Positions 17,562-35,716 of a stretch of DNA of 64,000 nt are shown here, one piece after another. Both the position numbers and the translations under genes were made by a program. Source of the stretch: Halomicrobium urmianum (GTDB taxonomy: Archaea; Halobacteriota; Halobacteria; Halobacteriales; Haloarculaceae). The stretch covers positions 62,001 through 126,000 of the forward strand of contig NZ_CP084091.1 in assembly GCF_020217425.1 (NCBI RefSeq), in the 5' to 3' direction. The notes under the pieces are model-generated. The model had not been told where the DNA came from. It searched no databases and worked only from the letters and a program-made list of their open reading frames with translations. Numbering within the stretch: the stretch's first letter is position 1; every line of letters begins with the position of its first letter.

Positions 17562-18446
17562 CTACTGAGGAGTTGGTCCGTGACGAGGCGACTGACACAC
17601 CTGACACTCCCACATCGGCTGGCCCGACCACTCGTCATCTGGGAGAGACTCGAACTCCTGAAACTGGTGTTTAGTCATTCGACCGCACTTGCGACATTCA
17701 AGCTGTGTTTTCGAGGGAACACTGGGTTGGCGATTCTCGGACTGGTTGTCGTCGACGGAACGCTGGAGTGCAATCGACGGCACCAGCCAGACGTCGTCAT
17801 CGGCGCTCTCAAGTAGCTCTGTAACCCGATCTTCGTCACGAACGTCGTTCCCTCTCTCGTCGTAGAGGAACGTCGTGTGTGCCCCTTCATACCGCGACTG
17901 CGTCGACTCTGCCTGTCCAGTCCGCTCACGAGCGGCTGTGAGTAGCTGTTCGCCGCTTTCAGAGGTGACTCGAACTGCTTCGGGGAGCGAGGGCCACTTG
18001 TCGGTCAGCTGTGTGGCGGGCCTTGCATCGAGGTCGTAGATCAGCTGGCAGTCGTCGACCGCTGGATCCCTATCGGTCTTCGCGAGGAGCGTGGCCGCAG
18101 CAGCACCTTTCGCCACGGCCGCGTAGAACGTCGACGCCTCGACGAGCAGATGTACGACGTGGAGTAGTGTCCACTCAGTATCCGGAGGACGACTACTGTC
18201 GCTGGTTCCATCGAGATGATTTGAGAGGCAGAACCGACACTTGGTACGGTTCCCAGGAATCGACGCACCGCACGAGGAACACTCGCTCCGCGCCGATCTC
18301 ACTCGATCAGGATACGATCTGAGCCCTTCCTTTCGCTTTCGTTCTGCTCGTTCAGTGTTCCCCCGTCCAGAAAGCCCGTCGTCGGGAACGTGGTTCGCTT
18401 CGCCAAGTGGTCGTAGTTCCTCAAAACCAGAGTAGTGGTCCGTCAT
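17562..18446 (-). CDS. Two-zinc-ribbon protein of unknown function
   Basis: This 294-aa protein has an N-terminal zinc ribbon (CSSCGASIPGNRTKCRFC), a central helical and acidic domain, and a C-terminal ribbon (CRKCGRMTKHQF ... WECQVCQSPRHG). I recall this family from haloarchaeal plasmids, where it is sometimes labelled a biosurfactant protein, a name with little support. The two ribbons suggest nucleic-acid or protein binding. It is next to a TumE-like/HTH pair on the same strand but about 60 bp downstream. Confidence 0.65.
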   Translation of the reverse strand: MTDHYSGFEELRPLGEANHVPDDGLSGRGNTERAERKRKEGLRSYPDRVRSARSECSSCGASIPGNRTKCRFCLSNHLDGTSDSSRPPDTEWTLLHVVHLLVEASTFYAAVAKGAAAATLLAKTDRDPAVDDCQLIYDLDARPATQLTDKWPSLPEAVRVTSESGEQLLTAARERTGQAESTQSRYEGAHTTFLYDERGNDVRDEDRVTELLESADDDVWLVPSIALQRSVDDNQSENRQPSVPSKTQLECRKCGRMTKHQFQEFESLPDDEWSGQPMWECQVCQSPRHGPTPQ

Positions 18447-19741: not shown

Positions 19742-20662
19742 TCACGCCGCGTTGAGTTCGTCTCTCCTGGCACGAACTGTTACAGCTGACATCCCTGCAG
19801 CATCCGCAACTCTCTGCTGTGTGAGTGGTCTTCCGTGTTCCTGTGCAGCTTTGTATATGCAGGCCGCCGCGACGCCACTCGGACGACACCCGTTTGAAAT
19901 AGCAGTTTCTTGATGGTGCTTCGAGAGTGCCACTGCTCGACGCCGGGTGGCGTCTGAAATGCTAAGCTCTGACGCGAGACGGGGGATGAATTCGCTCGGT
20001 CGAACAGGCTGGGTCGGTAGTCCGAGTTCTGTATTCAGCGTCTTGTACGCATTCGCGACTCTCGATTGCTCGACGCGTGCTGCGTCGACGACGTCGTCGA
20101 GTAACCGCGAGTGACCGTTACAGCGACAGGCTCCGTAGATGCTTGCTGCCGCTATCGCCTCGATTGATCGGCCTCGAAGCAGATCTTCGGTTTGAGCGCT
20201 CCGGAACAGTTGACACGCCTGATCACGGACCGAACCTGAGAGCTCGAGGGCGCTCGCGATTCTTCGAACTTCACCCAGGCCGTGTGCGAGATTTCGCTCG
20301 GCTTTCGACTGGAACCGACCACGAGTCTGTTCACGCCGCATTCGGGATAGCCGCTGGCGCTTTCGTCCAGAGAGTTCGTTCCCGTTCGCATCTTTCCCGC
20401 GACCAATTTCCGTCGACAGCCCTCGGTCATGCCGTGCCGCAGTCAGTGGAGCGCCCGTCCGCTTTCGCTGGTCCTGATCGTGAGCTCTCCATTCCGGACC
20501 GTGGTCGATTCGTTGTTCGTCAATAACGAGTCCACAGTCCTCACAGATGGTTTCGACCGAGTTGGTAGTGACCAGGCCACTGCACTCGGGACATTGGTTT
20601 GCGTTCGATTCTGTCTGGATGTCCTCATCGAAAGTCGTTTCGTAGATGTCTCTGGTTGCCAT
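19742..20662 (-). CDS. tfb: Transcription initiation factor IIB (TFB) paralogue
   Basis: This 306-aa protein has the B-ribbon CPECSGLVTTNSVETICEDC (residues about 21-40), a B-finger/linker with a conserved basic stretch (GRKRQRLSRMRREQTR), and two cyclin-fold repeats (AEVRRI-like from about 125, and SEFIPRLASELS from about 225). TFB recruits RNA polymerase to TATA/BRE promoters; haloarchaea carry several, some dedicated to subsets of genes. It is divergent from the ApeA homologue at 20783, with a 120-bp shared promoter region. The start at 20662 (MATRDIYE) is chosen; 20671 is also possible. Confidence 0.9.
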   Translation of the reverse strand: MATRDIYETTFDEDIQTESNANQCPECSGLVTTNSVETICEDCGLVIDEQRIDHGPEWRAHDQDQRKRTGAPLTAARHDRGLSTEIGRGKDANGNELSGRKRQRLSRMRREQTRGRFQSKAERNLAHGLGEVRRIASALELSGSVRDQACQLFRSAQTEDLLRGRSIEAIAAASIYGACRCNGHSRLLDDVVDAARVEQSRVANAYKTLNTELGLPTQPVRPSEFIPRLASELSISDATRRRAVALSKHHQETAISNGCRPSGVAAACIYKAAQEHGRPLTQQRVADAAGMSAVTVRARRDELNAA

Positions 20663-20782
20663 CGTTCTCACCGTGTTTCGGGAACTCGCCAGTTCGGCGC
20701 GCCCCTCGCCCTTTTAAGGGTCAATAAACGCTATCAAACGGAACGACCCAACGCTAATCAACAGGCCTTCGGATATTGTTCT
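20663..20782. promoter_or_regulatory. Shared promoter region between TFB and ApeA-like gene
   Basis: About 120 bp separate the divergent starts. A TATA-like cttttaagg occurs at 20711-20719 and aataaacg just after. The arrangement would let one region control both the general factor and the HEPN protein. Confidence 0.4.
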
Positions 20783-22102
20783 ATGGAAGAACTGGAATAT
20801 CGTGGGGAATGGTGGCTTGCTGACGAAGACGAAGAGAATCGGGTTGCAGGCATTCTGGAGTTTGACCCCGATGAAGGAGGAAATTTGGAACTAATCGGCT
20901 CATTCGGAGACTTCGGGAGCGGCACATTTGGTGAGTACGACCTGATTAAGGGACACACGACCGACGGAAAGATCGTCACCCTACAGGACTGCTACGTCAA
21001 TCAGAGTGGACTTTCAGGAACGATGCAGAGCCAGTCGGTGAGCGTTCAGAAGGTCTTCACGGGAGTCCAATTCAGTGACGGCGACCTCGAATTAGACAAG
21101 GTGTGTCTTTCGTTTCCGCTTTTAGAGATGTGGACCGCGACTAACATTATCGGCGTCCCAGAAGGTCAGATGAGTGGTGCAGAGATTGGTGAATTCGACG
21201 AGGTAGAGGCTGAGTTGGAGAACGCGAATATCCGACTCAATATCACACCCTCTCAAATGATGAATCGATACGAGGGAATGGACATCACTCAACAGGCGTA
21301 TTTCTGCATCGAACCTGACGAACCACTCACCGTTTCTGAGTTCATTGATGACTACATTCGTCACCTACAGCATTTCGTCTGCCTCGCAATCGGGGAGCCT
21401 GTGAATCCTACCGATGTGAAAGGATACTTCGAGCATGACGGCGAAACCGAACGCATTCAAATTTCCTATCAGGTCTCGCACCTTCCGGGGGTTCCCAACA
21501 AGAAACATCCACACAAGCTCCAGTTCAACCTACGGGACATCGATTTTGAAGAGGCCATCCAGAATTGGTTTGAGGACGCAGAGGGTGCAGAGATGACTCA
21601 CAATCTGTACTTCGGCACTCAGTACAACAAGACGATGTTCGAGGAGAACAAATTTCTCTCACTCGTCATCGCGTTGGAGTCCTACCAGAGCTACCTATTC
21701 CCTGACCACCGGCTGATGGATGAGGACGAATATTCCGAACTCCACGACGATATTCTGGACACGATTCCCGACGATGCCGAGGCGAAAAGACGGGTAGACG
21801 ATCTGCTCGGGAGCATCGGGAACAAGGGTTCGCTCGGTGACCAACTTGAAATGGTGTTTTACGAGTACGAGGAAATTCTGGAAGACCTCATCGAGATGGA
21901 TGATGTTATCCAAGACGCGAAGAACGGTCGGCACACTATCGCTCACGGACTTGAACGGGAATACGACGTTAGCGAACTGGGAGATACTGCCCGACTTCTT
22001 CAGGTCGTAATTGAGGCGATCTTCCTGAGCGCAGTCGGTCTTGGTGACGAGTTCGTCAAGGAGAAACTGACGGAGAACCGGAAATACATTCTGAACCAGT
22101 AG
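20783..22102 (+). CDS. apeA: ApeA-like HEPN anti-phage protein
   Basis: This 439-aa protein has an N-terminal half that reads like the ApeA N-terminal domain (GEWWLADEDEENRVAGILEF, then LELIGSFGDFG). The C-terminal helical domain ends with a HEPN RNase motif R-x4-H at R383 and H388 (GRHTIAHG). In bacteria ApeA is a single-gene abortive defence protein; HEPN proteins usually cut RNA. The ATG at 20783 is chosen because the upstream frame overlaps TFB antisense and is not conserved. The lower G+C content than its neighbours and the small gap to a STAND NTPase suggest lateral transfer within a defence island. Domain call is good; activity is inferred. Confidence 0.8.
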   Translation: MEELEYRGEWWLADEDEENRVAGILEFDPDEGGNLELIGSFGDFGSGTFGEYDLIKGHTTDGKIVTLQDCYVNQSGLSGTMQSQSVSVQKVFTGVQFSDGDLELDKVCLSFPLLEMWTATNIIGVPEGQMSGAEIGEFDEVEAELENANIRLNITPSQMMNRYEGMDITQQAYFCIEPDEPLTVSEFIDDYIRHLQHFVCLAIGEPVNPTDVKGYFEHDGETERIQISYQVSHLPGVPNKKHPHKLQFNLRDIDFEEAIQNWFEDAEGAEMTHNLYFGTQYNKTMFEENKFLSLVIALESYQSYLFPDHRLMDEDEYSELHDDILDTIPDDAEAKRRVDDLLGSIGNKGSLGDQLEMVFYEYEEILEDLIEMDDVIQDAKNGRHTIAHGLEREYDVSELGDTARLLQVVIEAIFLSAVGLGDEFVKEKLTENRKYILNQ

Positions 22103-22316
22103 CCTCATCTGAATGATGTCCACTACTCAGCACCACGTAGTCGTACTCCATTTCGTCACATGAGGGTCTACCATGATGTCCGTTGAGGCAAAAGCTCGAG
22201 CGTACACGTAGTGCGGAACTAGCGTTGGGAATTGCTCCACCCTTTAGAGCGGATTTCGGGGTCTCAGAAACGACTCAACGACTATCGAATGCCTTTGAAA
22301 TATAGGGGATAATGGA
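22103..22316. other. Intergenic, no gene seen
   Basis: This is the region between the convergent ends of the ApeA-like gene and the 22317 gene. No structure beyond short AT-rich stretches is visible. Confidence 0.4.
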
Positions 22317-22709
22317 CTACTGCTGACCCTCTGATTCGGGACTGTATGCCAGTACTTCAGCGTCGATGAGACGAACCGCGTCATCGTAGAATTTCCCCTC
22401 AACAGTTCCCTCAAAGTGCTCCAGAAGCCCCTCGACTACTGCCTGTTCCTTGCCGACCTGCCGACCTTCCTCTGGGAGTCGGCGGGCATCATCGCAATTC
22501 GCACAGAATCGGAACCGCTGGTACCACTCTTCATCACCCCGTTCCTGGTCTTTCACGTAGTAGATGATGACACCATCTCCGGCCTCCATACTCTCTTGGC
22601 AGTTGTGGGGACCGTAATCGACCTTCCCCATCTGTGGGTGTCCTTGACAGTGGACGACGCCACCCTTTGTGTGACGGACCACATCTCCGACGAACTCCTC
22701 TCGATTCAT
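22317..22709 (-). CDS. Cys/His-containing 130-aa protein
   Basis: The protein is acidic with scattered metal-ligand candidates (VVHCQGHPQMG, GPHNCQES, RFCANCDD). The pattern is not a standard ribbon. Its promoter probably includes the TATA-like gtataaag at about 22728-22735. It is antisense between the ApeA-like gene and the STAND NTPase. No family is recognised; by position it may belong to the defence cluster. Confidence 0.6.
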   Translation of the reverse strand: MNREEFVGDVVRHTKGGVVHCQGHPQMGKVDYGPHNCQESMEAGDGVIIYYVKDQERGDEEWYQRFRFCANCDDARRLPEEGRQVGKEQAVVEGLLEHFEGTVEGKFYDDAVRLIDAEVLAYSPESEGQQ

Positions 22710-22808
22710 TAGATCAGAATGTTTCCTTTATACCCATTAACCTAACGAGCAGAAGAGTCGGTGTGTCCGAAGGTTCTTTCGTATCAGAGTAATACAGAAT
22801 TCTAAGAA

Positions 22809-24935
22809 ATGCCTCGGATACGCGAAGACGAGTTCTACGCGGTTCTTCAAGCTGTGGATGACGGTGTCCAGTCTGTTCACATCTCGGGGCAACCGGGCGT
22901 CGGGAAGAGTACGTTCTTGGAGGAATTGGAAGAAGAACTTTCGGAGTGGTACCGAACCCGAGTACTCTACGTTCGTGAAGGCAACACTCCTACAACACTC
23001 TCGCAAGATCTCCTCATCGAAGCCCGTGACGCGGTCGGAACTCTCAGTGCTCTGATTAACAAAGCGACTGGAATGAGTGTAGGAATCAGTCCTGCGAGTG
23101 CTGGGGTATCCACTGACGACCGCGCACGGCATCTTCGAAAGTTAGCCAGTCTCTCGGAGTCTGTCAACGAGTACAAACGGCTCATTTTCTTCGTCGACGA
23201 CGTACACAAGCTCGACGAACCGGAGGTCACGCGGGACTTCCTCCGTGAATTATCTTCCACTCTCGGAGAGAATGTCCACCTCATCACGGCAGGACGCCTT
23301 TCATTTGATGACGTTGACTACACCGTCCATCTGGAAACGTTCTCACGCGAGGAAACTGCGAACTATTTCCAAGAGGAGCACCCAGACGTCGACGACGAAA
23401 CGATAGACGGCGTCTACGAGAAGTTGGACGGCCATCCCTATTATCTCGGTCTACTCAGGGAGGCTGCAGGTGACGACGGTACATTCGAGATTCCCAAAGA
23501 GGACACACGGGACTTCATCGAGAGAGCGTACCTTGACTCGATGTCGGAGGCTGAAGAGGAGTTCATTCGGAAGACTGCGGGACTTGCTGAGTTGGACGAA
23601 GACATCTGCTCGGCAGTATTGGATGACGTGAGTCGCACACAGGCCCGGCGCACTCTTGACTCTCTGAGCACCAAGGCAGTCGTTCAGGAATTAGGTCGCT
23701 CAGAAGACACCGGAGATAGAGTGTTCAAAGTCCACGACCTATTCCAAGAATTCCTCTACGAGCAACTCGAGAACCCAGAAAAGCTCCACCGAGCAGCGTT
23801 CCAATACTACGCAGAGAAGCTCTATGATGAGGTTGAGGGAAGTGAAGCACCCATGCTGGAGGGATTCGTGTACGGATTGCTTGGGAATGCCCACCTGCAA
23901 GAGATTTACAACGGGGACCCGGAGGTCGAACAATTTCGTGAGGAAGTCGACCGGTTGGAGTTTGAGCCTCACGAACGCCTTCAGTTTATGTTCGGATACG
24001 CTCCATATGCACCTACACCTGAGGACCAATCTGCTACACTGCTCGCTCTGGAGCTAGATGACTATACGGAATGGATCCGTGGTCTGGAACCAGAAGATGA
24101 CGGGGAAGAGCTAAAATTAGAATTCGTCGGAGTGCTGTTCGATTTGATGCGGGCCACAGTCCGACCCAATACCGATGTCGAATTCGATGATTCGTCTGTG
24201 GAGATCTATGAGTCCACGTTACAGCGGGTCGAGGACTTCGACTTCGTCGCGTTCTTCGATGAAGAGGAGCAAGACACGGCTCAGATTATCCCTGACATGC
24301 TCCGCCTATGTGTACATGTCTCTGCCCACCGAGACCTTGAGGAGGGTGAACATGATGGTGGACACCTGACTGCAGCCTACGATGTACTGGAGAGGTATGG
24401 CCTGAATCGAGTTGCTGTTGAAGGGTTCATTGACAACTGCCGAGAATTGGCTGAGGAATATGAAGCAGGTGAGCAGGCGGAAGAGATGATCGAGGGCCAG
24501 ATGGAGGAGTTCTTCGGGCAGTTTGACCAAGACGATGCGACCCGGAATACCCTCATTCGAATGCAGTCAGACCTCTACAGCGAGATGATGGGGCTGGCGA
24601 ACTCGGCGTTCACTGCGATGATTTCAGAGTCCGACCGCCTACTGGAGTTCATCCACGAGTGCGGTGACAGTCTGGAGCAAGCAGATAATCCATTCTTCGT
24701 CGCTGCGTGGTACTCGTTCGCTGCCCACGTCTACCGGATGTTCGCCCCGAATGCGGATTCCACAAGGGAACTGGAAGAAGCTGCTCAGCACTACGCAGAG
24801 GTCCGTATGGAGTACGAAGAAGATCTCGATAATCCTATCTATGAGATCGAAGAGTTCGAAGTCTACGACATGGACTTCCCTGACTTGATGGACGAGATCG
24901 CCAGTAGCGATGGAGACCGCCAGCTGACGGAATAA
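22809..24935 (+). CDS. P-loop STAND/AAA NTPase with helical repeats
   Basis: This is a 708-aa protein. Walker A GQPGVGKST is at residues 27-35, Walker B RLIFFVDDVH at about 124-133, and an arginine-bearing sensor-like ITAGR at about 159-163. A winged-helix-like segment follows (TRRTLDSLSTKAV, FKVHDLFQEFLYEQL), then 350 residues of acidic helices that look like TPR-type repeats. This order is that of STAND NTPases, which oligomerise on sensing a trigger. No N-terminal effector domain is present, so the effector would have to be separate; the ApeA-like HEPN protein upstream or the membrane proteins downstream are candidates. The frame starts at the ATG that opens the conserved region. Confidence 0.8.
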   Translation: MPRIREDEFYAVLQAVDDGVQSVHISGQPGVGKSTFLEELEEELSEWYRTRVLYVREGNTPTTLSQDLLIEARDAVGTLSALINKATGMSVGISPASAGVSTDDRARHLRKLASLSESVNEYKRLIFFVDDVHKLDEPEVTRDFLRELSSTLGENVHLITAGRLSFDDVDYTVHLETFSREETANYFQEEHPDVDDETIDGVYEKLDGHPYYLGLLREAAGDDGTFEIPKEDTRDFIERAYLDSMSEAEEEFIRKTAGLAELDEDICSAVLDDVSRTQARRTLDSLSTKAVVQELGRSEDTGDRVFKVHDLFQEFLYEQLENPEKLHRAAFQYYAEKLYDEVEGSEAPMLEGFVYGLLGNAHLQEIYNGDPEVEQFREEVDRLEFEPHERLQFMFGYAPYAPTPEDQSATLLALELDDYTEWIRGLEPEDDGEELKLEFVGVLFDLMRATVRPNTDVEFDDSSVEIYESTLQRVEDFDFVAFFDEEEQDTAQIIPDMLRLCVHVSAHRDLEEGEHDGGHLTAAYDVLERYGLNRVAVEGFIDNCRELAEEYEAGEQAEEMIEGQMEEFFGQFDQDDATRNTLIRMQSDLYSEMMGLANSAFTAMISESDRLLEFIHECGDSLEQADNPFFVAAWYSFAAHVYRMFAPNADSTRELEEAAQHYAEVRMEYEEDLDNPIYEIEEFEVYDMDFPDLMDEIASSDGDRQLTE

Positions 24936-24966
24936 ATCAAGGTCTTAGCTGCCTGCGGCGGAAAGA

Positions 24967-25893
24967 CTACAGATCCGGATTCCTGTAAGGAGATGAGATT
25001 GCGAAGAGATCGATATCTTTAGAGATTTGTGAGATCACATTCTGAATCACCGATTCAAAATTAACATCGGCAGTCACCACCTCGTACGTATTCTCGGCGA
25101 ATCTCCGGTACTCGTGGACGACTTCTTCTGCCTTGGCCGGAATGTCTTCGAGGCCCAGATCCGAGAATTCGCGGAGTATCGCGAGCGTCTGCGTTGCCAT
25201 CGAGGTTAGATATGTTACGAACTCATCGGGGGTTCGGAGTGCTGCGGGCAGAATCCCCCGGATCGCGTAATGAATCTCGCTGAGCATTAGACGATGAAGG
25301 CCTTTCAACGCCACATCTACTGAGCCAGAGAACCCACTATGACGAAGCGAGTACAGGAACCTATTGTTTAGATAACGCGTTCCCTTCCAGGCCATCCGAT
25401 AATTGAGGGGAGTTGTGAACAGAATCGCTTCCGCAACGAACAAACCGATGGCGCGGTAGAATTCGTGAAACCGCTTTGCAGCGATATCCTGAACCGACCC
25501 GATAGAGGTGTGCGCACGATCCAGTTTGTCTGCGCTTATCAAAAGATTGTGTCCGGCAATCACCAGTGCTACTCCGGAACTCAACTGTGCGCCCGTCATC
25601 GCAATACGGGCCAGTTTGCTGTGGCCCAGGCCGATTTGGAGGCTATCTTCTAAGACTTCGACGGTCTTCCGTGTCCGTTGTAGATCTCTGTCGACACCAC
25701 TGAAGAACGCTCTGATGTCTGTGGTCTCGTCAGCGGTCGGAAGCTGAGTGTCGGTGATTTGATCGTGGATCAAAGCCAGCTCATCGGCAAGCCTGACTGA
25801 CTGAATGCGACGCTCTCCCCGTGCGTGTACTCGCAGTCCTGATTGGAGTCTGGACTGCACATCAGCCACTCGTTCCGGGCTCGGTTCTGCCAC
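24967..25893 (-). CDS. Helical protein with two membrane segments
   Basis: This 308-aa protein has an N-terminal coiled region (SGVDRDLQRTRKTVEVLEDSL), two hydrophobic stretches at about residues 100-125 (MTGAQLSSGVALVIAGHNLLI) and 150-165 (IGLFVAEAILFTTPL), then helices. No family is recognised. It is divergent from 25948-26907 across 54 bp that contain an AT-rich tttaaaaattata (25918-25930). The close divergent pairing with another membrane-anchored helical protein suggests the two work together. Confidence 0.6.
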   Translation of the reverse strand: MAEPSPERVADVQSRLQSGLRVHARGERRIQSVRLADELALIHDQITDTQLPTADETTDIRAFFSGVDRDLQRTRKTVEVLEDSLQIGLGHSKLARIAMTGAQLSSGVALVIAGHNLLISADKLDRAHTSIGSVQDIAAKRFHEFYRAIGLFVAEAILFTTPLNYRMAWKGTRYLNNRFLYSLRHSGFSGSVDVALKGLHRLMLSEIHYAIRGILPAALRTPDEFVTYLTSMATQTLAILREFSDLGLEDIPAKAEEVVHEYRRFAENTYEVVTADVNFESVIQNVISQISKDIDLFAISSPYRNPDL

Positions 25894-25947
25894 TAACGGG
25901 TGGTCGCCCCGGAAGAATTTAAAAATTATAGACAGTAGGCATGTGTA

Positions 25948-26907
25948 GTGCGAGATTCGGATCGATCTACTGACGGATTCGATCTTGAGGACCTCCGTGA
26001 GGAGGTTGCCCGTCGGAAATTATTGTTGGGTGTGGCCGTGCTGGGTGGTGGATCGCTTCTCATTACCCAGTCGGATTCCACACAAAAGGAAGACACTGAC
26101 GAGCTTGCCCAGGCCGAAACCCAGCTTGTAGACGTCGCTGAACGGGTAAACGAAGCAGATCTGGCTAATCCACGGGAAGCCTCTTTCCTCCACAATGAGA
26201 TCACTCAATCGGTGAAACCGGTTACTGATACTCTCGATCAACACGACTCAGGCGGACCCAAGACCGAGCAACGGGCCTCCGCTCTTAATGCTGCGATAGA
26301 CTACTACAACACGCTCGCGAGGACGCTCAACACGGGGACAACCCTCCTGTCACAGGTGGCTGAGTCTGAACTGGAGGTACTCCGCCACAAGCGAAGCCTC
26401 GGGTATGAACCTGTGACCGCATTCGACCTTGGGTCATTCGAGGAGTCTATCACGCGACTTAGCCAGTCAAAAAAGGATCCTGAGACGGTCACCTCAAACG
26501 GTCGCAAGCTTGTTCCAAATCAGAGCCAAGTCATCGATTCCCTTCGCGTTCAGCGTGATGTGTTCGACCGACACCTCACTGCACAGCAAACCTATCTTAA
26601 TACGGCCATAACGATCGAATCAGGCATCCGAGCCTACGAACAGTCCCAATACGATACGGCTCAGTCCAAACTGAGTCAAGCCCATGAGTCGCTCTCTGCG
26701 GGAATCCCACGCACTGAAGTCTCCTACCGCTTATCTAATGCTGGTCTTTCGCTTGATCAGTATATGACATTGTTGGGCCTGCGACGTGAGGGCGTATCCA
26801 AACTGCTTGATGTCTGTGATGAGTCTGTCCCTGAGCAAGAACGGCGTGCTGTGGCTAATACGGCTCTCAAACACTTTTTCGAGGCGCGCCAGGTCGCAAC
26901 TGATTGA
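25948..26907 (+). CDS. Membrane-anchored coiled-coil protein
   Basis: This 319-aa protein starts from a GTG. A single N-terminal membrane helix (KLLLGVAVLGGGSLLIT, about residues 29-45) is preceded by RR and followed by a long soluble helical part rich in Gln, Glu and Ser (AQAETQLVDVAERVNEADL). It probably sits outside the cell or faces the membrane as a bundle. It is followed after 37 bp by a small membrane protein. No family is recognised. Confidence 0.6.
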   Translation: MRDSDRSTDGFDLEDLREEVARRKLLLGVAVLGGGSLLITQSDSTQKEDTDELAQAETQLVDVAERVNEADLANPREASFLHNEITQSVKPVTDTLDQHDSGGPKTEQRASALNAAIDYYNTLARTLNTGTTLLSQVAESELEVLRHKRSLGYEPVTAFDLGSFEESITRLSQSKKDPETVTSNGRKLVPNQSQVIDSLRVQRDVFDRHLTAQQTYLNTAITIESGIRAYEQSQYDTAQSKLSQAHESLSAGIPRTEVSYRLSNAGLSLDQYMTLLGLRREGVSKLLDVCDESVPEQERRAVANTALKHFFEARQVATD

Positions 26908-26944
26908 AAGGCCACAGAAAACATATGAAGGTTGCCTCAAAGAT

Positions 26945-27151
26945 ATGAATATGACCGAACAGGTAGTCGAAGCAGCGGTCGCCGCTATAGTTATGGCTGT
27001 CTGTTTTGGTGCTGCCGCTATTATTCTAGGAGCGAATGCGGGGGTTGTGAGTGGCCTCATTACCGTGGTTGTCAAGCTGGCCGCCGGTGTCGCTGTTATT
27101 GGTGTCTTTGCGGCTGTTATCTTCTCGTTTGTACGGGCAGCTGCTCCCTGA
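26945..27151 (+). CDS. Small two-helix membrane protein, 68 aa
   Basis: It opens MNMTEQVVEAAVAAIVMAV and contains two long hydrophobic, Ala/Gly/Val-rich helices separated by GANAGVVSG, with a short charged tail. Such composition resembles small pore-like or pilin-like proteins. It sits directly after the coiled-coil protein on the same strand. The start at 26945 is chosen because the upstream frame overlaps the previous gene. Confidence 0.55.
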   Translation: MNMTEQVVEAAVAAIVMAVCFGAAAIILGANAGVVSGLITVVVKLAAGVAVIGVFAAVIFSFVRAAAP

Positions 27152-27171
27152 CCAACCACCCCGCTCTCCGT

Positions 27172-27771
27172 TTACAGGTGGCGAACTTCGATTGAATCGT
27201 CTCTTCTATCCACACCGCCATAGTCCATCATGCAAAGTCCATCATTCAGCACACCGACGTTCATCTCTACATCCTCAACTGTCCACCCTAGCTCGGTCAA
27301 TTCCTCTTCCATCCATTCGGGTGCGTCAGGATCGTAGATATACTCTTGACCGGAAAGCAGATACGCTATATCTCCTTTATGCGGAGAAACAGGCCTTACA
27401 CGTCTCATAATCAACCATCTGTAGTCCTCTGCATCCCATGCATGGATTGGGGCAAAAAGGGACTCGTGTTTCCGCCCCAAATCGCAGGCCTTCTGCCATA
27501 CCTTGATTTCTCTATAACTATGCGGCAGAGGTTTCCCCGATGCCTTGATTACGTAGAATGTTTCAAGATCGGTGTCTCCAATGAAGTCATCGCGAACCAG
27601 TGAGTCGGGGAGAGAAAAGATCCTCCGGCCCAAAGAGCCCCCAGTAAACTCCTTTACTCCGTAGCGTTCGATAAAGGCCTCCACCTTCTCGTCGTTATGG
27701 AGAACCGAACAGAGTTCTTCAACAAATCTCTCGCCTGGATCAGTCAAAAGTTCCTGGTGATTCCGTGCCAT
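27172..27771 (-). CDS. Small protein-kinase-like fold protein
   Basis: The protein is 199 aa. The N-lobe elements are visible: a Gly-containing strand (GGSLGRRIF), a VIKA lysine (residue about 75), a helix with REIKVW (Glu partner) and a hinge (LIMRRV). The C-lobe is very short. The catalytic loop is reduced to MNVGVLNDG and the metal motif reads MDYGG, in place of HRD and DFG. Such minimal kinases occur in viruses and conflict islands; it may be a pseudokinase or bind a nucleotide without transfer. It lies 14 bp after the large membrane protein gene, as its downstream partner. The fold call is my inference from motif order. Confidence 0.5.
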   Translation of the reverse strand: MARNHQELLTDPGERFVEELCSVLHNDEKVEAFIERYGVKEFTGGSLGRRIFSLPDSLVRDDFIGDTDLETFYVIKASGKPLPHSYREIKVWQKACDLGRKHESLFAPIHAWDAEDYRWLIMRRVRPVSPHKGDIAYLLSGQEYIYDPDAPEWMEEELTELGWTVEDVEMNVGVLNDGLCMMDYGGVDRRDDSIEVRHL

Positions 27772-27785
27772 CGTCCTTCAACCCC

Positions 27786-30023
27786 TCACCGAGTATTTTT
27801 ATCGTGACTCAGGTACTCCCTTAGAGCTACACCCTGAGCTACTGCTGATCGGATATCATGCCGGGTTTTCAAATCGAAATGGAACCATCGATACTGCCTT
27901 TCTCTTGGCTTATCTGCCCCTTCTATTCCTTCCGCTAATTCATGGTGTAGCTGATTGTCTTGCCCAAAGTTCTGATTCATCTCGGCTGAGATAGCATACT
28001 GAACCTTGCTCCCCCAAACCTGGGATCCAGACATTGTCCAAGGTCTAACCCAATCACCACCGTGCTTCGATGCATAACCAAACTTCTGTGTAGGGGATGC
28101 CGGAAGGGCCTTTCCTCTCTGTACCACGTCTTGGAAATCAGACACCAATACATCGAACAATTTGGGGAAGTCTTTTTGAACATCGAACGACAGGCTCAGC
28201 CAGCAGCCATACAGCTTCAAATGCTTGTAGAGAGACCGATTCACTGCATCTCCCCATCTTCCGTCCTGGTTCTTCGGCAAGTTACTATAGAGATTCACAA
28301 AGTCTCCAGTGAACTCTTGGAGTGATTCTTTGTCTTCTCGGTGGAAGATAATCTGGAGAGCGTAGTAGTCCATCATGCTCTCCTCTACCTTTGAGTAGAC
28401 TCCTTCGTCTTCCTCGATACAGTGTTGATAGTACTGCTCGATGTAGTCAAGCCAGTTATCGTTGATCTGCTTCAACAGTTCTGGCTCGAACTCGTCGCTG
28501 AGTTCGATTTTGTAGCAAACAAGGTAGAGCATCTCCGGAAACACACTGTAGGAAGAGGAGTGTTTGTTACCGATATCGGTCGTAAGACTCCGATGGTGGA
28601 AGTCGATGTACTCTTCGAGATATTCCTTTGTGATCCGTTCAATACGTGGATTCTCAATCCCTTGGATATCTGCTCTCTTGAGCTTCCAGTTGAACGAATT
28701 CGCTCCGTACAGGGCCGCATAGAGAAGCTGTTCTTGGCTAAGTGAGGTCTCACTGGTTGCTTCGTTGAATCTGTTGGCCAGGTCGTCGAAGAAGTCTCGG
28801 ATCTGCCATTCCTCGACTGCAAGCTTCTCATCGAGTAGAAGCTGTACCAGTTTCACGTACTGCCACTGGTACTTATTCAATGCTCTCTGGAGAAGCAGTG
28901 CCGAATAGTACTGCTTAGCTTCCGCACAAATATCTGCGATGTCGTCTAAGTGACTGTTGTAATAGTTGTAAGAGCTGTAATCTCCATCTTCCAAGGCTGC
29001 GACGGATACTTCGTCGATCTTGTCGATGCAGACGTGCCCGACCGAGGTCAGATCTAGACCATATGACTTGAAAAACAGGTCCTTCATCGACTTCAAAAGG
29101 CGACCCGCCATCTGGCTCTGACCGCCCATGTCCCGATGCTCGACAATCGAGAGAGCTATATCACCCATTGCCTCCGCGATATCATCCAGATATTTCTGCC
29201 GTGAATCCTCTTCCAGTGCCGTTCTAATCAAGAACTCGAAGTAGTCTGCGACTTCATTAATGAAGTCGTCATTCGTAATCTCACCGCTAGTCTGCTCCAA
29301 ATACCGATCTGAGACCTCAGAGATCGAATTCAGGGTCGATTCAAACACGTCTCTCTGGTCTTTTTCAATAGCCCTGCTCCCTGTCGAAAACAAGAGATGA
29401 ACATCCTTGACCAAATCCTCAGTAAACTCCTCGTCGTGCTCCGGGACAAGAGGCCTCCAAGTCGAATAGATATTACGCGGCTCAATCTTTCGCAGCATCC
29501 GATCCGTGACGTAGTCCACAATATTCGAGATATTCAGGAAGTAGCCCGTGAAGAGGATAATAGCACCAATCAAGAGAACTGCAATAATTGACAGAACGTA
29601 GCTAACCAAATCATACGGCGACGCCCAATCCAGATACAGGCCTGTCAAGTTGAAGGCTGAGAATCCGAGGATAAAGACAAGGATCCCTATGAGGTACTTG
29701 TCTTTGAAAATGAGCATCGAAAGGCGCGGCGAGTACTCTTGATTCGCATTCTGAATTAAGAATATCACCAAGAGAAATATCACACTCATAAAATTTAGAA
29801 TCAAGCTGAGCGACTGATCGAAGATAGCCGGATTAGAAACCTCTTGAATAATCGAGCCTATTCCGAAAGGTCTCCAGACAACCGTTATTGTCAGGAGAAC
29901 GAGGGTCAAAGCGGAAGCTAGGCACAGAAGCTCTCCGTACCTATAAAGAGAGACGCTGAAAATCGCTTTTATGCGCCTCCATGCTATATAAAGCAGATAT
30001 CTAATCCAGTAACGAACCCTCAT
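27786..30023 (-). CDS. Large membrane protein, DUF2254-like N-terminus
   Basis: This 745-aa protein has about five membrane helices in the first 190 residues, including FLIQNANQEYSPRLSMLIF, which resembles the SSQYSPR signature of DUF2254 membrane proteins. The following 550 residues are soluble helices with many Tyr, Asp and Glu and no catalytic motif I can see. Codon usage is AT-richer than the flanks, a sign of transfer. It is probably transcribed together with the kinase-like gene downstream. The function is unknown; a membrane sensor is possible. Confidence 0.6.
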   Translation of the reverse strand: MRVRYWIRYLLYIAWRRIKAIFSVSLYRYGELLCLASALTLVLLTITVVWRPFGIGSIIQEVSNPAIFDQSLSLILNFMSVIFLLVIFLIQNANQEYSPRLSMLIFKDKYLIGILVFILGFSAFNLTGLYLDWASPYDLVSYVLSIIAVLLIGAIILFTGYFLNISNIVDYVTDRMLRKIEPRNIYSTWRPLVPEHDEEFTEDLVKDVHLLFSTGSRAIEKDQRDVFESTLNSISEVSDRYLEQTSGEITNDDFINEVADYFEFLIRTALEEDSRQKYLDDIAEAMGDIALSIVEHRDMGGQSQMAGRLLKSMKDLFFKSYGLDLTSVGHVCIDKIDEVSVAALEDGDYSSYNYYNSHLDDIADICAEAKQYYSALLLQRALNKYQWQYVKLVQLLLDEKLAVEEWQIRDFFDDLANRFNEATSETSLSQEQLLYAALYGANSFNWKLKRADIQGIENPRIERITKEYLEEYIDFHHRSLTTDIGNKHSSSYSVFPEMLYLVCYKIELSDEFEPELLKQINDNWLDYIEQYYQHCIEEDEGVYSKVEESMMDYYALQIIFHREDKESLQEFTGDFVNLYSNLPKNQDGRWGDAVNRSLYKHLKLYGCWLSLSFDVQKDFPKLFDVLVSDFQDVVQRGKALPASPTQKFGYASKHGGDWVRPWTMSGSQVWGSKVQYAISAEMNQNFGQDNQLHHELAEGIEGADKPRERQYRWFHFDLKTRHDIRSAVAQGVALREYLSHDKNTR

Positions 30024-30284
30024 ACCAAAATCAACTTTCTGTCGAGCAATGGTGTATCTACTGTTATCTTTGTTACCCTCTCAGACGGATGAGTCTATCA
30101 TCTACCGGCCTGCTAACTCACTGTCCGGTACGGTCTGCTCGACGTTTTCTAGAACCTGCCCGAGCTTTTCTTAGTCTCCTCTATCGAAGTGCTTCTCAGG
30201 CTTTCGAACCCAGAACAGTAATATCAGGCTTCGAATACCCGCGTAAAGTGTGATTATTTAGGTCCTGGAGAGGTTTTTCGTTCT
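30024..30284. promoter_or_regulatory. Divergent promoter region
   Basis: About 260 bp lie between the divergent DUF2254-like and rhomboid genes. The DNA is AT-richer than the window average. I see no frame with coding character; it likely holds both promoters. Confidence 0.4.
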
Positions 30285-31136
30285 ATGGCGTGGCTTGGTA
30301 ATTTCCGGAGCGAAGTAAGAGAGAATGCGCGGGTATCGGATTTGGCTTTGATTTTCTCGGTGCCGATCTTTCTTTCGTTGATCTTCCTGCTTCCTGAGTC
30401 AATTCAGAACTCTTTGATCTTGGACTACGGTAATTACTCTATCGTCAATCTCTGGAGCTCGGCCTTTGTGCATCGAGGATTCAATCACTTCAGCAATAAT
30501 TTGGCGGCTTACTGCGTTCTGATCGGTCCAATATATTTGCTTTTCGTGCTGGCTGATGAACGGCAGCTGTTCCGATACACGTTCCTGGCATTCCTCTTCA
30601 TCCTCCCGTTCGTCATAGCTCTAAGCAACATAGCCGCTCTTGGCTCTGGAACCGGAGCAGGCTTCTCTGGAATCGGCTCCGCATTCTTCGGGCTCCTCCC
30701 CGTCTCGCTATTTCTATTCATCCACAACAAGGTCTCAGAGGAGATAGAACCCGCTCACGGGGTCGTACTGTTTCTCATAGCCGCCGCAATCATCGCAGGA
30801 ACCTACTCCGGCGTTACTGCAGCAGCTGGCATTCTGTTGTTCGCTGTATTGATCACCGTCTACGACACCTACCAGGTGGGCCTTGACGAGGTAAAGGAAG
30901 CCGCTGCCGGGCTAACCTCGATGGAAGGCTATTTTGAACTGGTAATGATCGCGGGCCTCCTATTCTTGCTGTCTCCTGTACTGCTCTTTCCTCAAGATAT
31001 CGCCCAAGGCGACGGCACTGTGAACATTCTATCCCACTATCTGGGGCTTCTCTGGGGATTTTTCGGGCCCATTATTTATTTGTTCTACCGAAGACATCGG
31101 AGGCAGCTCATCCCAGACATCCAGAGTGGTTTCTAA
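30285..31136 (+). CDS. Rhomboid-family intramembrane serine protease
   Basis: This 283-aa protein has seven or so membrane helices. The rhomboid pattern is complete: HRGFNHFSNN in the second helix region, the catalytic serine in GFSG (S128) and the catalytic histidine H251 in SHYLGLLWG. Rhomboids cut other membrane proteins within the bilayer. A neighbouring single-span protein, such as the one at 25948-26907, could be a substrate, but that is only a guess. Low G+C content like the previous genes suggests they arrived together. Confidence 0.85.
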   Translation: MAWLGNFRSEVRENARVSDLALIFSVPIFLSLIFLLPESIQNSLILDYGNYSIVNLWSSAFVHRGFNHFSNNLAAYCVLIGPIYLLFVLADERQLFRYTFLAFLFILPFVIALSNIAALGSGTGAGFSGIGSAFFGLLPVSLFLFIHNKVSEEIEPAHGVVLFLIAAAIIAGTYSGVTAAAGILLFAVLITVYDTYQVGLDEVKEAAAGLTSMEGYFELVMIAGLLFLLSPVLLFPQDIAQGDGTVNILSHYLGLLWGFFGPIIYLFYRRHRRQLIPDIQSGF

Positions 31137-31185
31137 CTGTGTTTCGCCAATTGGAGAATCAACTTTCACCGGGCACCCTGCTCGG

Positions 31186-31419
31186 TTAGCGGTATTCCTG
31201 CCGCAACGACTGCGTACAGTCGTGATTGCGAATCCGCTCTGGGAGTCCGACCTTCCCGCAGACGGGACACTCCCGAAGGGGTGTCGGCGGTAGGTCGTTC
31301 CAAGCCTCTAGAGCAGCCGTTAACTGTGCTTCGACGATTGGTGAGTCGGTTGTCCGGCGGGCTTCGCGGAGGTGAATGCGAAGCCGTTCACGGGCTATGA
31401 GCGTTGTATCTTCGGTCAT
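31186..31419 (-). CDS. Small CxxC..H..C zinc-finger protein
   Basis: This 77-aa protein (MTEDTT start) has a helical first half and a C-terminal zinc finger, CPVCGKVGLPERIRNHDC. The start at 31419 is chosen because the hairpin leader copy C lies right upstream. It follows the HNH gene on the same strand and may be co-transcribed. The role is unknown. Confidence 0.6.
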   Translation of the reverse strand: MTEDTTLIARERLRIHLREARRTTDSPIVEAQLTAALEAWNDLPPTPLRECPVCGKVGLPERIRNHDCTQSLRQEYR

Positions 31420-31467
31420 GCTGGTACGGGAAGCTAGTGTCCCCGCCGCCCATTGGCGGGGGCGAGA
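31420..31467 (-). promoter_or_regulatory. GC-hairpin 5' leader, copy C
   Basis: A perfect stem CCCCGCC (31441-31447) / GGCGGGG (31455-31461) with a 7-nt loop lies 22 bp before the ATG at 31419. The minus strand reads tctcgcccccgccaatgggc, matching the leaders before 17280 and 43254. Confidence 0.55.
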
Positions 31468-31484
31468 AACACCACCGTGAGCGG

Positions 31485-32618
31485 TTAGCGAATATCGGGC
31501 TGGAGCGGAGCGAACTGTTCCCACATCATATGGTGTCGCTGACAGAGCGTGACCAAGTTCTCAAGCCGGTTCGACCGTTCGTAGTCGAGGACGCCATCGG
31601 CATCGATGAATGTGCCAAGTGGCGTAATGTGGTGGACGTTCAGGTCACGATCCCAGCGTTCGTGGTGTGCCTCTCGGTCAATTGTACAGCCCGGCATCTG
31701 GCACTCGAAGTCGTCACGCCCCAACGCGCGTTTGCGCTGCTTGTACCAGTTCGGTCCGTACGAAATGTCCCCGTAGCCGCCCTTCCAGTGCGGATGATCT
31801 GGTCCGCTCGGTTGCCCCCGGTACTCGAGCCCGGCTGCCTCCACGGCCTGCTTCCATGACCCATACCGATGGATGTATGGGTAGATCGTGATCTCTTCGT
31901 GTTTTCGCACTTCAACAGATGAGGGCACATGACCCAGCTCATCGCGGAGCTGAGTCAGCTCCTGAAGTAACTCCTCTTCTGAGATATTTCGCCGCGTATG
32001 TGGGTTAAAACCCGCTTCCTGAAGTGCAGCGTTCCAACTACCGAAGCGCCACTGGGCGACTTTCGTTGCATACTCCCCTTGTTCATCCATTTCATAGGCG
32101 GTCGGTGGCCGCCCAAGGTCGTCAGCGAGGGCCTGAATTGCTGTGATTACTTCTTGCCGTGTGACTTTGGTCGATTTCGTCGTCGACAGCCCTGCAGCAT
32201 CGAGTCCGGTATTCCACGATCCGAATTGCCATGTTACCGCACCTGGAGATACTTCTCCATATTTCTTCATTTCCCTTACTGACGGGGAGTGACCGAGCAT
32301 CTCGGCCACGCGCCGCAACTCGTCGGTTAGCTCCTCTCCTGAGTACGAGTGATCGAGTGGTTCAAGCCCCGCTTCTCTCAGCCCATCTCTCCAACTCCCG
32401 AACGTTGATTGTACGGCACCAACTGTAAACTCCGTCTCCTTCTCAACTTCGGGTTGCATCGGCGTTCGGCCTTTCTGTTCGGCGACGCGTCTGAGCTCCT
32501 CGATGATGTGGTCTGGTGAGATTGACTGCTTGTGGCCTGCTATATGGCCTGCGATCCCAACGTTCGTCTCGAACGATTCGCCACAGATGTCGCACGTGTA
32601 GTCTCCTTCAATTTTCAT
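31485..32618 (-). CDS. HNH endonuclease with homing-endonuclease-associated repeats
   Basis: This is a 377-aa protein. The N-terminus is a C2H2-like finger (CDICGESFETNVGIAGHIAGH). Four repeats of about 55 residues follow, each ending in a FGSWNxGLxxAG-type phrase (FGSWRDGLREAGL, FGSWNTGLDAAGL, FGSWNAALQEAGF, YGSWKQAVEAAGL). The C-terminal HNH nuclease has HHITPLGTF and NLVTLCQRHH plus two cysteines. Such repeats bind DNA in homing and phage-type nucleases. It could be a free-standing homing endonuclease or part of the defence island. The start at 32618 follows leader copy D. Confidence 0.85.
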   Translation of the reverse strand: MKIEGDYTCDICGESFETNVGIAGHIAGHKQSISPDHIIEELRRVAEQKGRTPMQPEVEKETEFTVGAVQSTFGSWRDGLREAGLEPLDHSYSGEELTDELRRVAEMLGHSPSVREMKKYGEVSPGAVTWQFGSWNTGLDAAGLSTTKSTKVTRQEVITAIQALADDLGRPPTAYEMDEQGEYATKVAQWRFGSWNAALQEAGFNPHTRRNISEEELLQELTQLRDELGHVPSSVEVRKHEEITIYPYIHRYGSWKQAVEAAGLEYRGQPSGPDHPHWKGGYGDISYGPNWYKQRKRALGRDDFECQMPGCTIDREAHHERWDRDLNVHHITPLGTFIDADGVLDYERSNRLENLVTLCQRHHMMWEQFAPLQPDIR

Positions 32619-32669
32619 GCGTAACTCTGAGCGCTGGTGCGCCCGCACCCTCCGTGGGGTCGGACAAAC
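32619..32669 (-). promoter_or_regulatory. GC-hairpin 5' leader, copy D
   Basis: The minus strand reads tccgaccccacggagggtgc then gggcgcacc, about 22 bp before the ATG. It resembles leader copies A-C but is less perfect. The rest of the gap to 32889 holds no gene. Confidence 0.45.
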
Positions 32670-32889
32670 ACGCCCGGTCGCGCACACCTTCTCCCGTTTT
32701 CTGTTATAAATGTCACACCGACACCCGAGGTTGTGGCTGCGCGCGCAGCGGAGTCCTCGTGAGCATCGCAAACGAGGGCACGTGAGACGAGCGAATGCGA
32801 GTCTCACGGAGCGAGCACGGAGCGGAGGGTGGGGAGGAGGGGCCTGGGTCGGTCCGGCACGTAGCAAAAAAGAAGGGTACGACGACTGG

Positions 32890-33786
32890 CTATTCCCACC
32901 ACCGACCGCGCTCAGGGAAGTGCAGGGTCGACCAGCCAGTGATGGCTACTGAGACGCGCCCGTTGTACCAGTTCTTCGCCGCTCCGTGAATCCTCACGCG
33001 CTCGCCCTCTTCGATCCAGGGGGCATCTGACGCTTTCCAGCTGGTGAACTTCGTCCGCCCACTGTCGTCTTCGATGAGACCGACTTGTTGAATGGCCGGA
33101 GAGTTGCTCTCCCAGAGTACCGTAACACGACCTTCGATGCTCACCTCTTTGCGATTGACGTTCTCGAGCATCCCGATGGGAACCACCGTCCCAGGAGCCG
33201 TCTGCAACTCCTCGAACACCCCAACGACTGCGCTCATCATGTCTTTCCCACCGACTACGGCTTCACCCAGCCGCCGACCAATCGCTGCTCGCGACCAGCC
33301 ATCCAGTTTCTCCGCCAGCCGCATCGACTGCTTGTTCACCGCCGCCAACTGCTCCTGCCTGAGTTCTGCACGAGGATCGTTTCTCTCCGGGTCTGCCCAC
33401 GGGTCCACGCTTGCCGCCCGCTTTTGGAACTCTGCACGCCGCTCAGCGCTTCGCTTCGCTACGATATCTCGCGTCCGCTTTTCCCGACCTTCTTGCGTCC
33501 CCATCTCTGCCTTGGCACTGATGCGCTCCAGTTCAGCCTCCCGCGCCCGAATGCGCTCTTCCTGTTCGAGGGTCGCACCGTAGATCCGCTCTTCGCTGGT
33601 GTCGACCATCCCATCCGGGTGGTTCGCATCGACCTTTGCCTGCACCTCCATCTGCACCGTCGCCTGGAACTCAGGGGTCTCATCGACGACCTCGAAGCCC
33701 TCTTCATCGACCGCCGCTTCGTCCGCTTTTTCGAATGCTTGTTCATCGACCGAAACTACTTCACTGGTAACGTTCTTACTTGACAT
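32890..33786 (-). CDS. RPA-like single-stranded DNA-binding protein
   Basis: This 298-aa protein has a long charged and coiled N-terminal part (EERIRAREAELERISAKAE) and a C-terminal OB fold from about residue 205 (RKEVSIEGRVTVLWESNSPAIQQVGLIEDDSGRTKFTSW in two pieces, then VRIHGAAKNWYNGRVSVAI). This matches plasmid-borne haloarchaeal SSB/RPA-like proteins that coat ssDNA during replication or repair. It is divergent from the release-factor gene across an 850-bp structured non-coding region, an arrangement that would suit a plasmid maintenance locus. Confidence 0.75.
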   Translation of the reverse strand: MSSKNVTSEVVSVDEQAFEKADEAAVDEEGFEVVDETPEFQATVQMEVQAKVDANHPDGMVDTSEERIYGATLEQEERIRAREAELERISAKAEMGTQEGREKRTRDIVAKRSAERRAEFQKRAASVDPWADPERNDPRAELRQEQLAAVNKQSMRLAEKLDGWSRAAIGRRLGEAVVGGKDMMSAVVGVFEELQTAPGTVVPIGMLENVNRKEVSIEGRVTVLWESNSPAIQQVGLIEDDSGRTKFTSWKASDAPWIEEGERVRIHGAAKNWYNGRVSVAITGWSTLHFPERGRWWE

Positions 33787-34639
33787 TGGATCTCACTGAT
33801 CCGAAGGCGCCCAGCGCCCGACACCGCGATGCTGCAACATCGCGGTTTTCCGACGACAACGCCCGACAGAACCATCTACGCGCTCTCGCTCGCGCCTTCG
33901 TGAGCGCCCCTTGGGGCGCGAGCGAGAGCGCGCCTCAGGGAGACCACCCAACCAGAACCGCGCGCCGACCCGCCCGGAGCGAGCGGCCAGCTTTAAGCCG
34001 TTTCTCGCGTCCGGCCCGGACTGCGGGTCCGTGTCCAGGGCGACGGTCGTGAGCACGGCGAGCCGTGGTGTGGCTCGCCGCGCGGAACGGCTCAAAGCGC
34101 TGGAACGCGAAAGCCCGCGAGGGGCGCAACCGAAAACGCACTTAATGCTGGCGTCGAGACCAGATTTACTTTAGCCCGGAACGGGCGCTCCCCGCACCGC
34201 GAGCGCCCGCACGCCCGGAATGGTCGGTCGCGAGCGACGCGGAGGGCAGAAGCGGCGAGCGGGGCGTGCCGTAACAAAGAACCTGTTCAACCGGGCTCGA
34301 CGCTCTGTCACACAGCCGATATCCTGGTGGACTCAGAAAGGGCGAGGTCGTCTCGGTCGCCCCCCGACCCCGCAAGCACCACAGGCACGAGGAGCGCAGT
34401 GTGGGTCGCGGGATGCCGAGCGGCCGAGGGCTTTCTATTCGTTCTCAGCCACCCCCTGCCGTCTCGACGGAAGCATTATCCTGCACCGCCACGGACGATA
34501 TAGTATGCACCACACACCGCCGGTGCAACGGGTGAACGTGCGGACGATGAGCGCTTGCTCTGTTCTTTCGTAGTTGGTAGCGGCGCCGGCGGGTGTATCG
34601 CCTTCTCATCGAGCAGCGACGCCGCTTTCACCGAGACAA
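33787..34639. other. 850-bp structured intergenic region
   Basis: No supported gene. The DNA is GC-rich with nested inverted repeats: perfect 15-bp arms at 33880-33894 and 33917-33931, and inside them 7-bp arms gcgcccc/ggggcgc at 33904-33910 and 33913-33919. An inverted repeat cgcgatg...catcgcg lies at about 33823-33843. It could be an origin, a long structured leader for the SSB gene, or a regulatory RNA. Confidence 0.5.
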
Positions 34640-35716
34640 ATGCAGACCACCGAGTACGAACTCCGCGATCGAATCGACCAGCTCATAAACTACCGTGGCG
34701 AGGGCACCGAGCTCATCACCGTGGCCGTCCCGCCAGACAAATCGCTCCATGCGGTTCGTGAGCGCATTGACCGCGAATATGCACAGGCTGCGAACATCAA
34801 ATCCGATCAGACACGAACTCACGTCCAGGACGCGCTCGGACGTATCCGACGCCTCCTCCAAGCGTACGAAGAGCCACCACCAAGCGGCCTTGTCATCTAC
34901 GCTGGTGTCGTTGATGGTGAGCTGCAGGACGCCGTCTTCGACGATCTCGACGTCCCCGTCGACGTCTCACTGTACCGCTGTGCAGCCGAATTCGAGACAG
35001 CCCCCGTCGAGCAGGCGCTCACCCCGTCAGAGGTGTACGGTCTGGTCGTCCTCGAACGGGGCCGTGCTGCCCTCGGTCGCCTCGCCGGCGAACGCATCGT
35101 TTCCAGCCGGACCTTCGAGAGCCAAGTGATGGGAAAATCCCGTGCTGGCGGTCAGAGTGCGCAGCGATTCGAACGCGAGCGCGACCGCCAGAAACACGAG
35201 TTCTTCGAGCAGGTCGCCGACGCTGCCGAGCAGACGTTCCTCGATGAGCCCACTGTCGATGGCGTCATCCTCGGCGGGACGACAATCACCGTCGACGAGT
35301 TCCAGCAGGGTGACTATCTCCACCACGAGTTGCGGGACCACATACTAGGCGTCTATCCGATTGAGTACGCGACCAAGCAGGGTCTCTCGCAGCTCGTAGA
35401 GCGTGCCGAGGACGTACTGTCTGATGCTGAGCGCCGACGGGAGCGGGAATCCCTCGATCGGTTCTTCACGGCGCTGGGACAGGGTGGAGATGTCGCCTAC
35501 GGAGCTGATGAAACGCGAACCGCCCTCGACTATGGAGCGGTCGACGTCCTTCTCGTTTCCGACGCACGGCCACCAGCGGAGATTCGTGAACTGGAGGAAG
35601 CGACGACCGACCAAGGCGGTGAGTGTCTCGTTGTGTCGACTGACACAGATCGAGGTGCTCAGTTCGATACTGCATTCGGGGGCCTTGGAGCGCTCCTCCG
35701 GTTCCGTATTAACTAA
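34640..35716 (+). CDS. Second peptide chain release factor (aRF1/eRF1-like)
   Basis: This 358-aa protein, shorter than the usual 410-420, keeps all the decoding marks: NIKS at residues 52-55, YxCxxxF at Y112-C114-F118 and GGQ at 170-172 (RAGGQSAQRFERER). The C-terminal domain (VDVLLVSDARPPAE, CLVVSTDTDRG) is also present. aRF1 recognises stop codons and releases the peptide. An extra copy in accessory DNA beside an SSB gene and a toxin-antitoxin pair suggests a conflict or virus-derived role. The start at 34640 is preferred because it begins the conserved region. Confidence 0.85.
   Translation: MQTTEYELRDRIDQLINYRGEGTELITVAVPPDKSLHAVRERIDREYAQAANIKSDQTRTHVQDALGRIRRLLQAYEEPPPSGLVIYAGVVDGELQDAVFDDLDVPVDVSLYRCAAEFETAPVEQALTPSEVYGLVVLERGRAALGRLAGERIVSSRTFESQVMGKSRAGGQSAQRFERERDRQKHEFFEQVADAAEQTFLDEPTVDGVILGGTTITVDEFQQGDYLHHELRDHILGVYPIEYATKQGLSQLVERAEDVLSDAERRRERESLDRFFTALGQGGDVAYGADETRTALDYGAVDVLLVSDARPPAEIRELEEATTDQGGECLVVSTDTDRGAQFDTAFGGLGALLRFRIN

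Follow-up and report, generated by a model that had tools for sequence, protein, structure and literature searches.

An archaeal ApeA homologue in a variable cargo slot beside a TFB gene of Halomicrobium urmianum

The protein described here is a member of ApeA, which appears in Anantharaman et al. 2013 as the ApeA/BMEI1217 family and in Gao et al. 2020 as a defence system. The phyletic entry of the ApeA family reads 'Bacteria > Archaea' (Anantharaman et al. 2013, PMC3710099). The R-x4-6-H motif of HEPN domains has been argued to be an endoRNase site (PMC3710099), and ApeA is listed among the defence systems with HEPN domains (PMC7699616). According to the title of a 2026 preprint cited in PMC13405049, bacterial ApeA is activated by deoxydinucleotides. 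A sequence-only reading of the present DNA had described ApeA as a single-gene defence protein of bacteria. The first part of this description holds, as the gene stands alone; the second is incomplete in view of the phyletic entry. The occurrence of ApeA in archaea is already on record, and the gene reported here extends a known family.

The window, by which we mean the whole stretch of 64,000 nucleotides analysed, carries the ApeA gene on the forward strand (20783–22102). The span 20663–22102 consists of a 120-bp intergenic region (20663–20782) and this gene, which begins with ATG and encodes 439 amino acids. A Pfam search of the protein bore out the N-terminal domain that had been read from the letters: ApeA_NTD1 (PF18862) matches residues 5–262 over its entire profile (1–271 of 271) at 9.8e-46, with a score of 156.8 bits against a curated cut-off of 25.5. 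At the C-terminus, HEPN_Apea (PF18739) matches residues 292–422 at 4.4e-14 (53.5 bits, curated cut-off 24.4). The best PADLOC model is PDC-S58, which covers the full length of the protein (residues 1–437) at 2.5e-57. The PADLOC Cas13-ApeA HEPN model gives 2.8e-18. The HEPN motif R383-x4-H388 lies at exactly the residues named beforehand, and 19 aligned homologues from haloarchaea show no variation at either R383 or H388, nor at G8, W10, W117, F248, W262, or E299. Both domains were matched by Pfam in all 19. The motif is kept in 20 of the 21 members of a larger homologue set, one degenerate member included.

Compared with the ApeA of Haloplanus ruber, there are 12 non-synonymous and 45 synonymous differences, which correspond to a dN/dS of 0.064 (all dN/dS and dS values given here are simple Nei–Gojobori counts). 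The protein is therefore maintained by purifying selection. A single-sequence AlphaFold2 model reached a mean pLDDT of 35, which is too low to be informative, and no solved structure has a significant sequence match to the protein. A PAZ domain was considered and rejected; the weak PAZ/Piwi matches at residues 216–292 recur in one of the 19 homologues, and the family profile gives no match. Judged by its sequence, the gene is a genuine, stand-alone ApeA homologue with an intact HEPN motif.

The distribution of ApeA is patchy. A profile search detected ApeA_NTD1 in 24 of 391 Halobacteria genomes, which represent 18 of 86 genera; none of the six other Halomicrobium genomes searched has it. The nearest relative is that of H. 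ruber (97% identical). Full-length homologues are present on named haloarchaeal plasmids of Halocatena salina (61% identity), Halanaeroarchaeum (46%), and Halobacterium (27%), and bacterial plasmids carry full-length homologues that are approximately 22–25% identical. No relatives were found in the phage records or viral contigs searched. ApeA is often plasmid-borne, and the copy of Halomicrobium urmianum is on a secondary replicon. The neighbours of the plasmid homologues vary, with transposases, an ATP-binding protein, and TPR proteins among them, and no conserved antitoxin-like partner was seen near the ApeA genes inspected. At 18 other ApeA loci (17 plus H. ruber, where the contig ends close on one side), both flanks were searched by tblastn over up to approximately 8 kb, and the genes that neighbour ApeA in the window were detected only in H. 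ruber. Database records label such archaeal genes “HEPN domain-containing proteins”.

Divergently from ApeA, a TFB gene occupies 19742–20662 on the reverse strand, with its start ATG at 20662, an in-frame GTG at 20671, and its end at 19742. It encodes a zinc ribbon and two TFIIB repeats (Pfam Zn_Ribbon_TF, 2e-13; TFIIB, 5e-35). The label of TFB paralogue that it had been given is right, because the 4.25-Mb genome contains approximately 11 TFB genes, three of them on the same 418-kb contig as ApeA. TFB matches at E≤1e-80 were found in 277 of 391 Halobacteria genomes. The conserved neighbour of TFB, p17565 (17562–18446, reverse strand), matches NCBIfam NF051898 ‘biosurfactant protein 1’ with 465 bits (cut-off 320), and a homologue lies downstream of TFB in 45 of 54 TFB loci.

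The 120-bp spacer shared by the two divergent genes is real, as had been noted. Nucleotide homology and aligned upstream regions divide it into two parts. Approximately 20663–20730 is the conserved TFB promoter with operator-like inverted repeats, and approximately 20731–20782 belongs to the ApeA unit. The promoter block, with its TTTATT-like box and inverted repeats of the CCCCTCA...TGAGGGG type, is the same in TFB loci without ApeA. Two operator-like inverted repeats, CCCCTCA...TGAGGGG and CTCGCC...GGCGAG, directly follow the TATA-like box of TFB in the window (20663–20730) and in loci L047, L048, and L068–L078.

Beyond this promoter block lies a variable cargo slot of approximately 12.1 kb, the limits of which are set by homology on the left and on the right. 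Six further TFB loci, among them the other two of this contig, share nucleotide homology with the TFB side as far as 20728–20733; in a seventh, L070, the homology stops at the TFB start. On the right, homology begins at 32805–32811 in 25 other loci. The slot therefore extends from about 20730 to 32806, with ApeA at the left end of its cargo. The right anchor is a gene for a 298-residue OB-fold nucleic-acid-binding-like protein (32890–33786, reverse strand), with a Pfam OB-fold match of 3.5e-5 that is just under the family cut-off. This protein is 90.6% identical to its homologue beside the G176 slot. An eRF1-like release factor paralogue with eRF1 domains 1–3 is located just outside the slot (34574–35716).

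The OB-fold gene is found upstream of TFB in 45 of 54 TFB loci. The gap between the two genes is 215–229 bp in 14 loci, which are empty (several of these are near-identical plasmids and not independent), and 418 bp in one. In the other 30, the gap is 1.6–8.4 kb and contains mostly unshared genes. Clustering of the 136 cargo ORFs gave 100 groups, each confined to three loci at most, whereas nine families recur in 11–29 loci on the opposite side of TFB. The region is a variable cargo slot, with conserved anchors, filled and empty sites, and unrelated cargo. We consider it to be more interesting than ApeA itself. The slot is not described in the literature found by a shallow search, which is weak evidence of novelty.

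The cargo next to ApeA begins with p22320, a small protein of 130 residues (22317–22709, reverse strand) with homologues in H. ruber and in the G029 slot. It is followed by an AAA_16-type P-loop ATPase (STAND/MalT-like) of 708 residues (22809–24935, forward strand), with a Pfam AAA_16 match of 4e-12 that is over the cut-off, a weak MalT match, and weak PADLOC matches only. This ATPase may be a separate defence gene. A membrane protein of 745 residues (27786–30023), which has a sub-threshold DUF2254 match only, is also slot cargo. An HNH endonuclease that carries homing-endonuclease-associated repeats (31485–32618, reverse strand; Pfam HNH_repeat 1.3e-74 and HNH_2 1.8e-4, both over the cut-off) occupies the right edge of the slot. 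Relatives that are 35–48% identical are located at the same edge of four other slots (L119, L125, L137, and L155), which makes five with the slot described here.

Cargo of defence type is present in other slots: an archaeal Argonaute-type REase protein, Lamassu LmuB, an nSTAND protein, a CBASS-type cyclase, a 2TM effector, and QatC. The Argonaute-type REase protein (PADLOC Aga_REase_Archaea, 8e-163) is encoded at 4507–5892 of L104, which is the corresponding slot in a different genome, and its gene recurs with two adjoining genes in three loci. At 1e-10, 90 slot proteins matched 80 PADLOC models, compared with 88 models from 85 control proteins; this is a coarse measure, in which models and not proteins are counted. 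The control proteins were taken from the other side of TFB, and their matches include CRISPR-Cas genes. We do not call the slot a defence-specific hotspot, because the control side matched just as many models.

The sequence-only reading had suggested that ApeA could be switched on by the divergent TFB, acting as a general factor dedicated to it. The shared spacer would fit such a role, and the same arrangement is present in H. ruber, but neither gene keeps to the other. None of 29 TFB orthologues (74–93% identical, with 1.5-kb flanks) has ApeA beside it. Among the 18 other ApeA loci, TFB adjoins ApeA in H. ruber only; in G225 the OB-fold gene separates ApeA from a TFB at a distance of approximately 5 kb, and ApeA genes of 60% and 47% identity have no TFB within approximately 8 kb. 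The TFB of H. ruber breaks off after residue 182, where it passes into a p17565 remnant, whereas the ApeA beside it is intact and still under purifying selection. Between the two genomes, ApeA has a dS of 0.18 and TFB residues 1–182 have one of 1.14, which is an approximately sixfold difference. Nucleotide identity to H. ruber is 92–98% only across approximately 20717–22117, a stretch that comprises ApeA and the sequence immediately before it; it is approximately 75–87% on the TFB side and 75–93% past the ApeA stop. ApeA therefore moved or was exchanged separately from TFB, and the two genes have separate histories. The TFB promoter element is also the same at loci without ApeA. There is no joint conservation of the two as a dedicated factor and target, and with H. 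ruber as the sole other case, the adjacency is essentially one of chance in this genome. Control of ApeA by this TFB is thus most unlikely. On the comparison of these loci, TFB is most likely only a neighbour of ApeA, because that spot of the replicon collects unrelated cargo genes.

Similar evidence bears on the possibility that ApeA forms a multi-gene system with p22320 and the AAA ATPase. Both genes are directly downstream of ApeA, and a 91% identical copy of p22320 also adjoins ApeA in H. ruber. However, apart from H. ruber, neither gene occurs near any other ApeA inspected, and the ATPase was not found near other ApeA genes at all. p22320 is encoded on the opposite strand, its dS to H. 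ruber is 0.64 compared with 0.18 for ApeA, and a 91% identical copy is present without ApeA in the G029 slot. For this last reason, p22320 was rejected as a partner. A multi-gene system appears very unlikely.

We consider it quite probable that this archaeal ApeA is a stand-alone HEPN ribonuclease for abortive antiviral defence that arrived as cargo in the TFB/OB-fold slot. Defence function, RNase activity, and trigger are attributed to it here by analogy with the family. The gene would have been dropped, or swapped by recombination, into the slot on a secondary replicon, and ApeA lies close to TFB because of the position of the slot and not because of a regulatory pairing. The protein would form a HEPN dimer that is probably silent in the uninfected cell. 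Infection would generate a nucleotide signal, and the N-terminal domain of ApeA may sense this product. The paired R383/H388 sites could then cut RNA, and the cell would shut down before the virus matures. If the properties of bacterial ApeA carry over to this archaeal protein, the trigger may be a deoxydinucleotide. The HEPN protein might instead have no antiviral role and act as an RNase in the stress response, or stabilise the replicon in the manner of a toxin. Such a function would suit a gene that is often plasmid-borne, and HEPN domains are also found in toxin–antitoxin and RNA-processing proteins (PMC3710099). We regard this as improbable, since the architecture is specifically that of ApeA, a listed HEPN defence system (PMC7699616), no conserved antitoxin-like partner was seen, and the patchy spread does not fit a housekeeping role.

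A broader proposal is that haloarchaeal replicons share a dedicated TFB/OB-fold integration slot, which is loaded and unloaded by the HNH homing-repeat endonuclease at its right edge and by way of which ApeA and other defence genes circulate. We put this forward tentatively, as an idea that is rather doubtful at present. Should the slot prove to be a true site of integration, new archaeal antiviral genes could be sought there, and the mechanism of gene exchange between haloarchaeal replicons would become testable. ApeA itself gives the family an archaeal member that is open to tests in laboratory strains of haloarchaea. The locus also carries a caution: a haloarchaeal gene that adjoins a general transcription factor need not be a target of that factor, since what lies upstream of this TFB is a slot for cargo.

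Compared with known ApeA, the protein has the same two-domain architecture, the R-x4-H motif, a single gene, and an accessory distribution. It differs in being haloarchaeal and approximately 22–25% identical to the bacterial plasmid homologues. PDC-S58, the PADLOC model that it matches best, represents a candidate single-gene defence protein and is a candidate profile without an assigned function. Cas13, Csm6, and Tha (PMC11087260) are likewise HEPN RNase effectors with the R-x4-6-H motif and are presumed to be dimeric; in contrast to these, ApeA has no guide RNA and no CARF domain, and its N-terminal sensor is different. The slot shares conserved anchors, empty sites, and unrelated cargo at one position with the cargo hotspots described between conserved backbone genes of plasmids and prophages. 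Here, however, TFB and OB-fold genes serve as the anchors, and the replicons are haloarchaeal.
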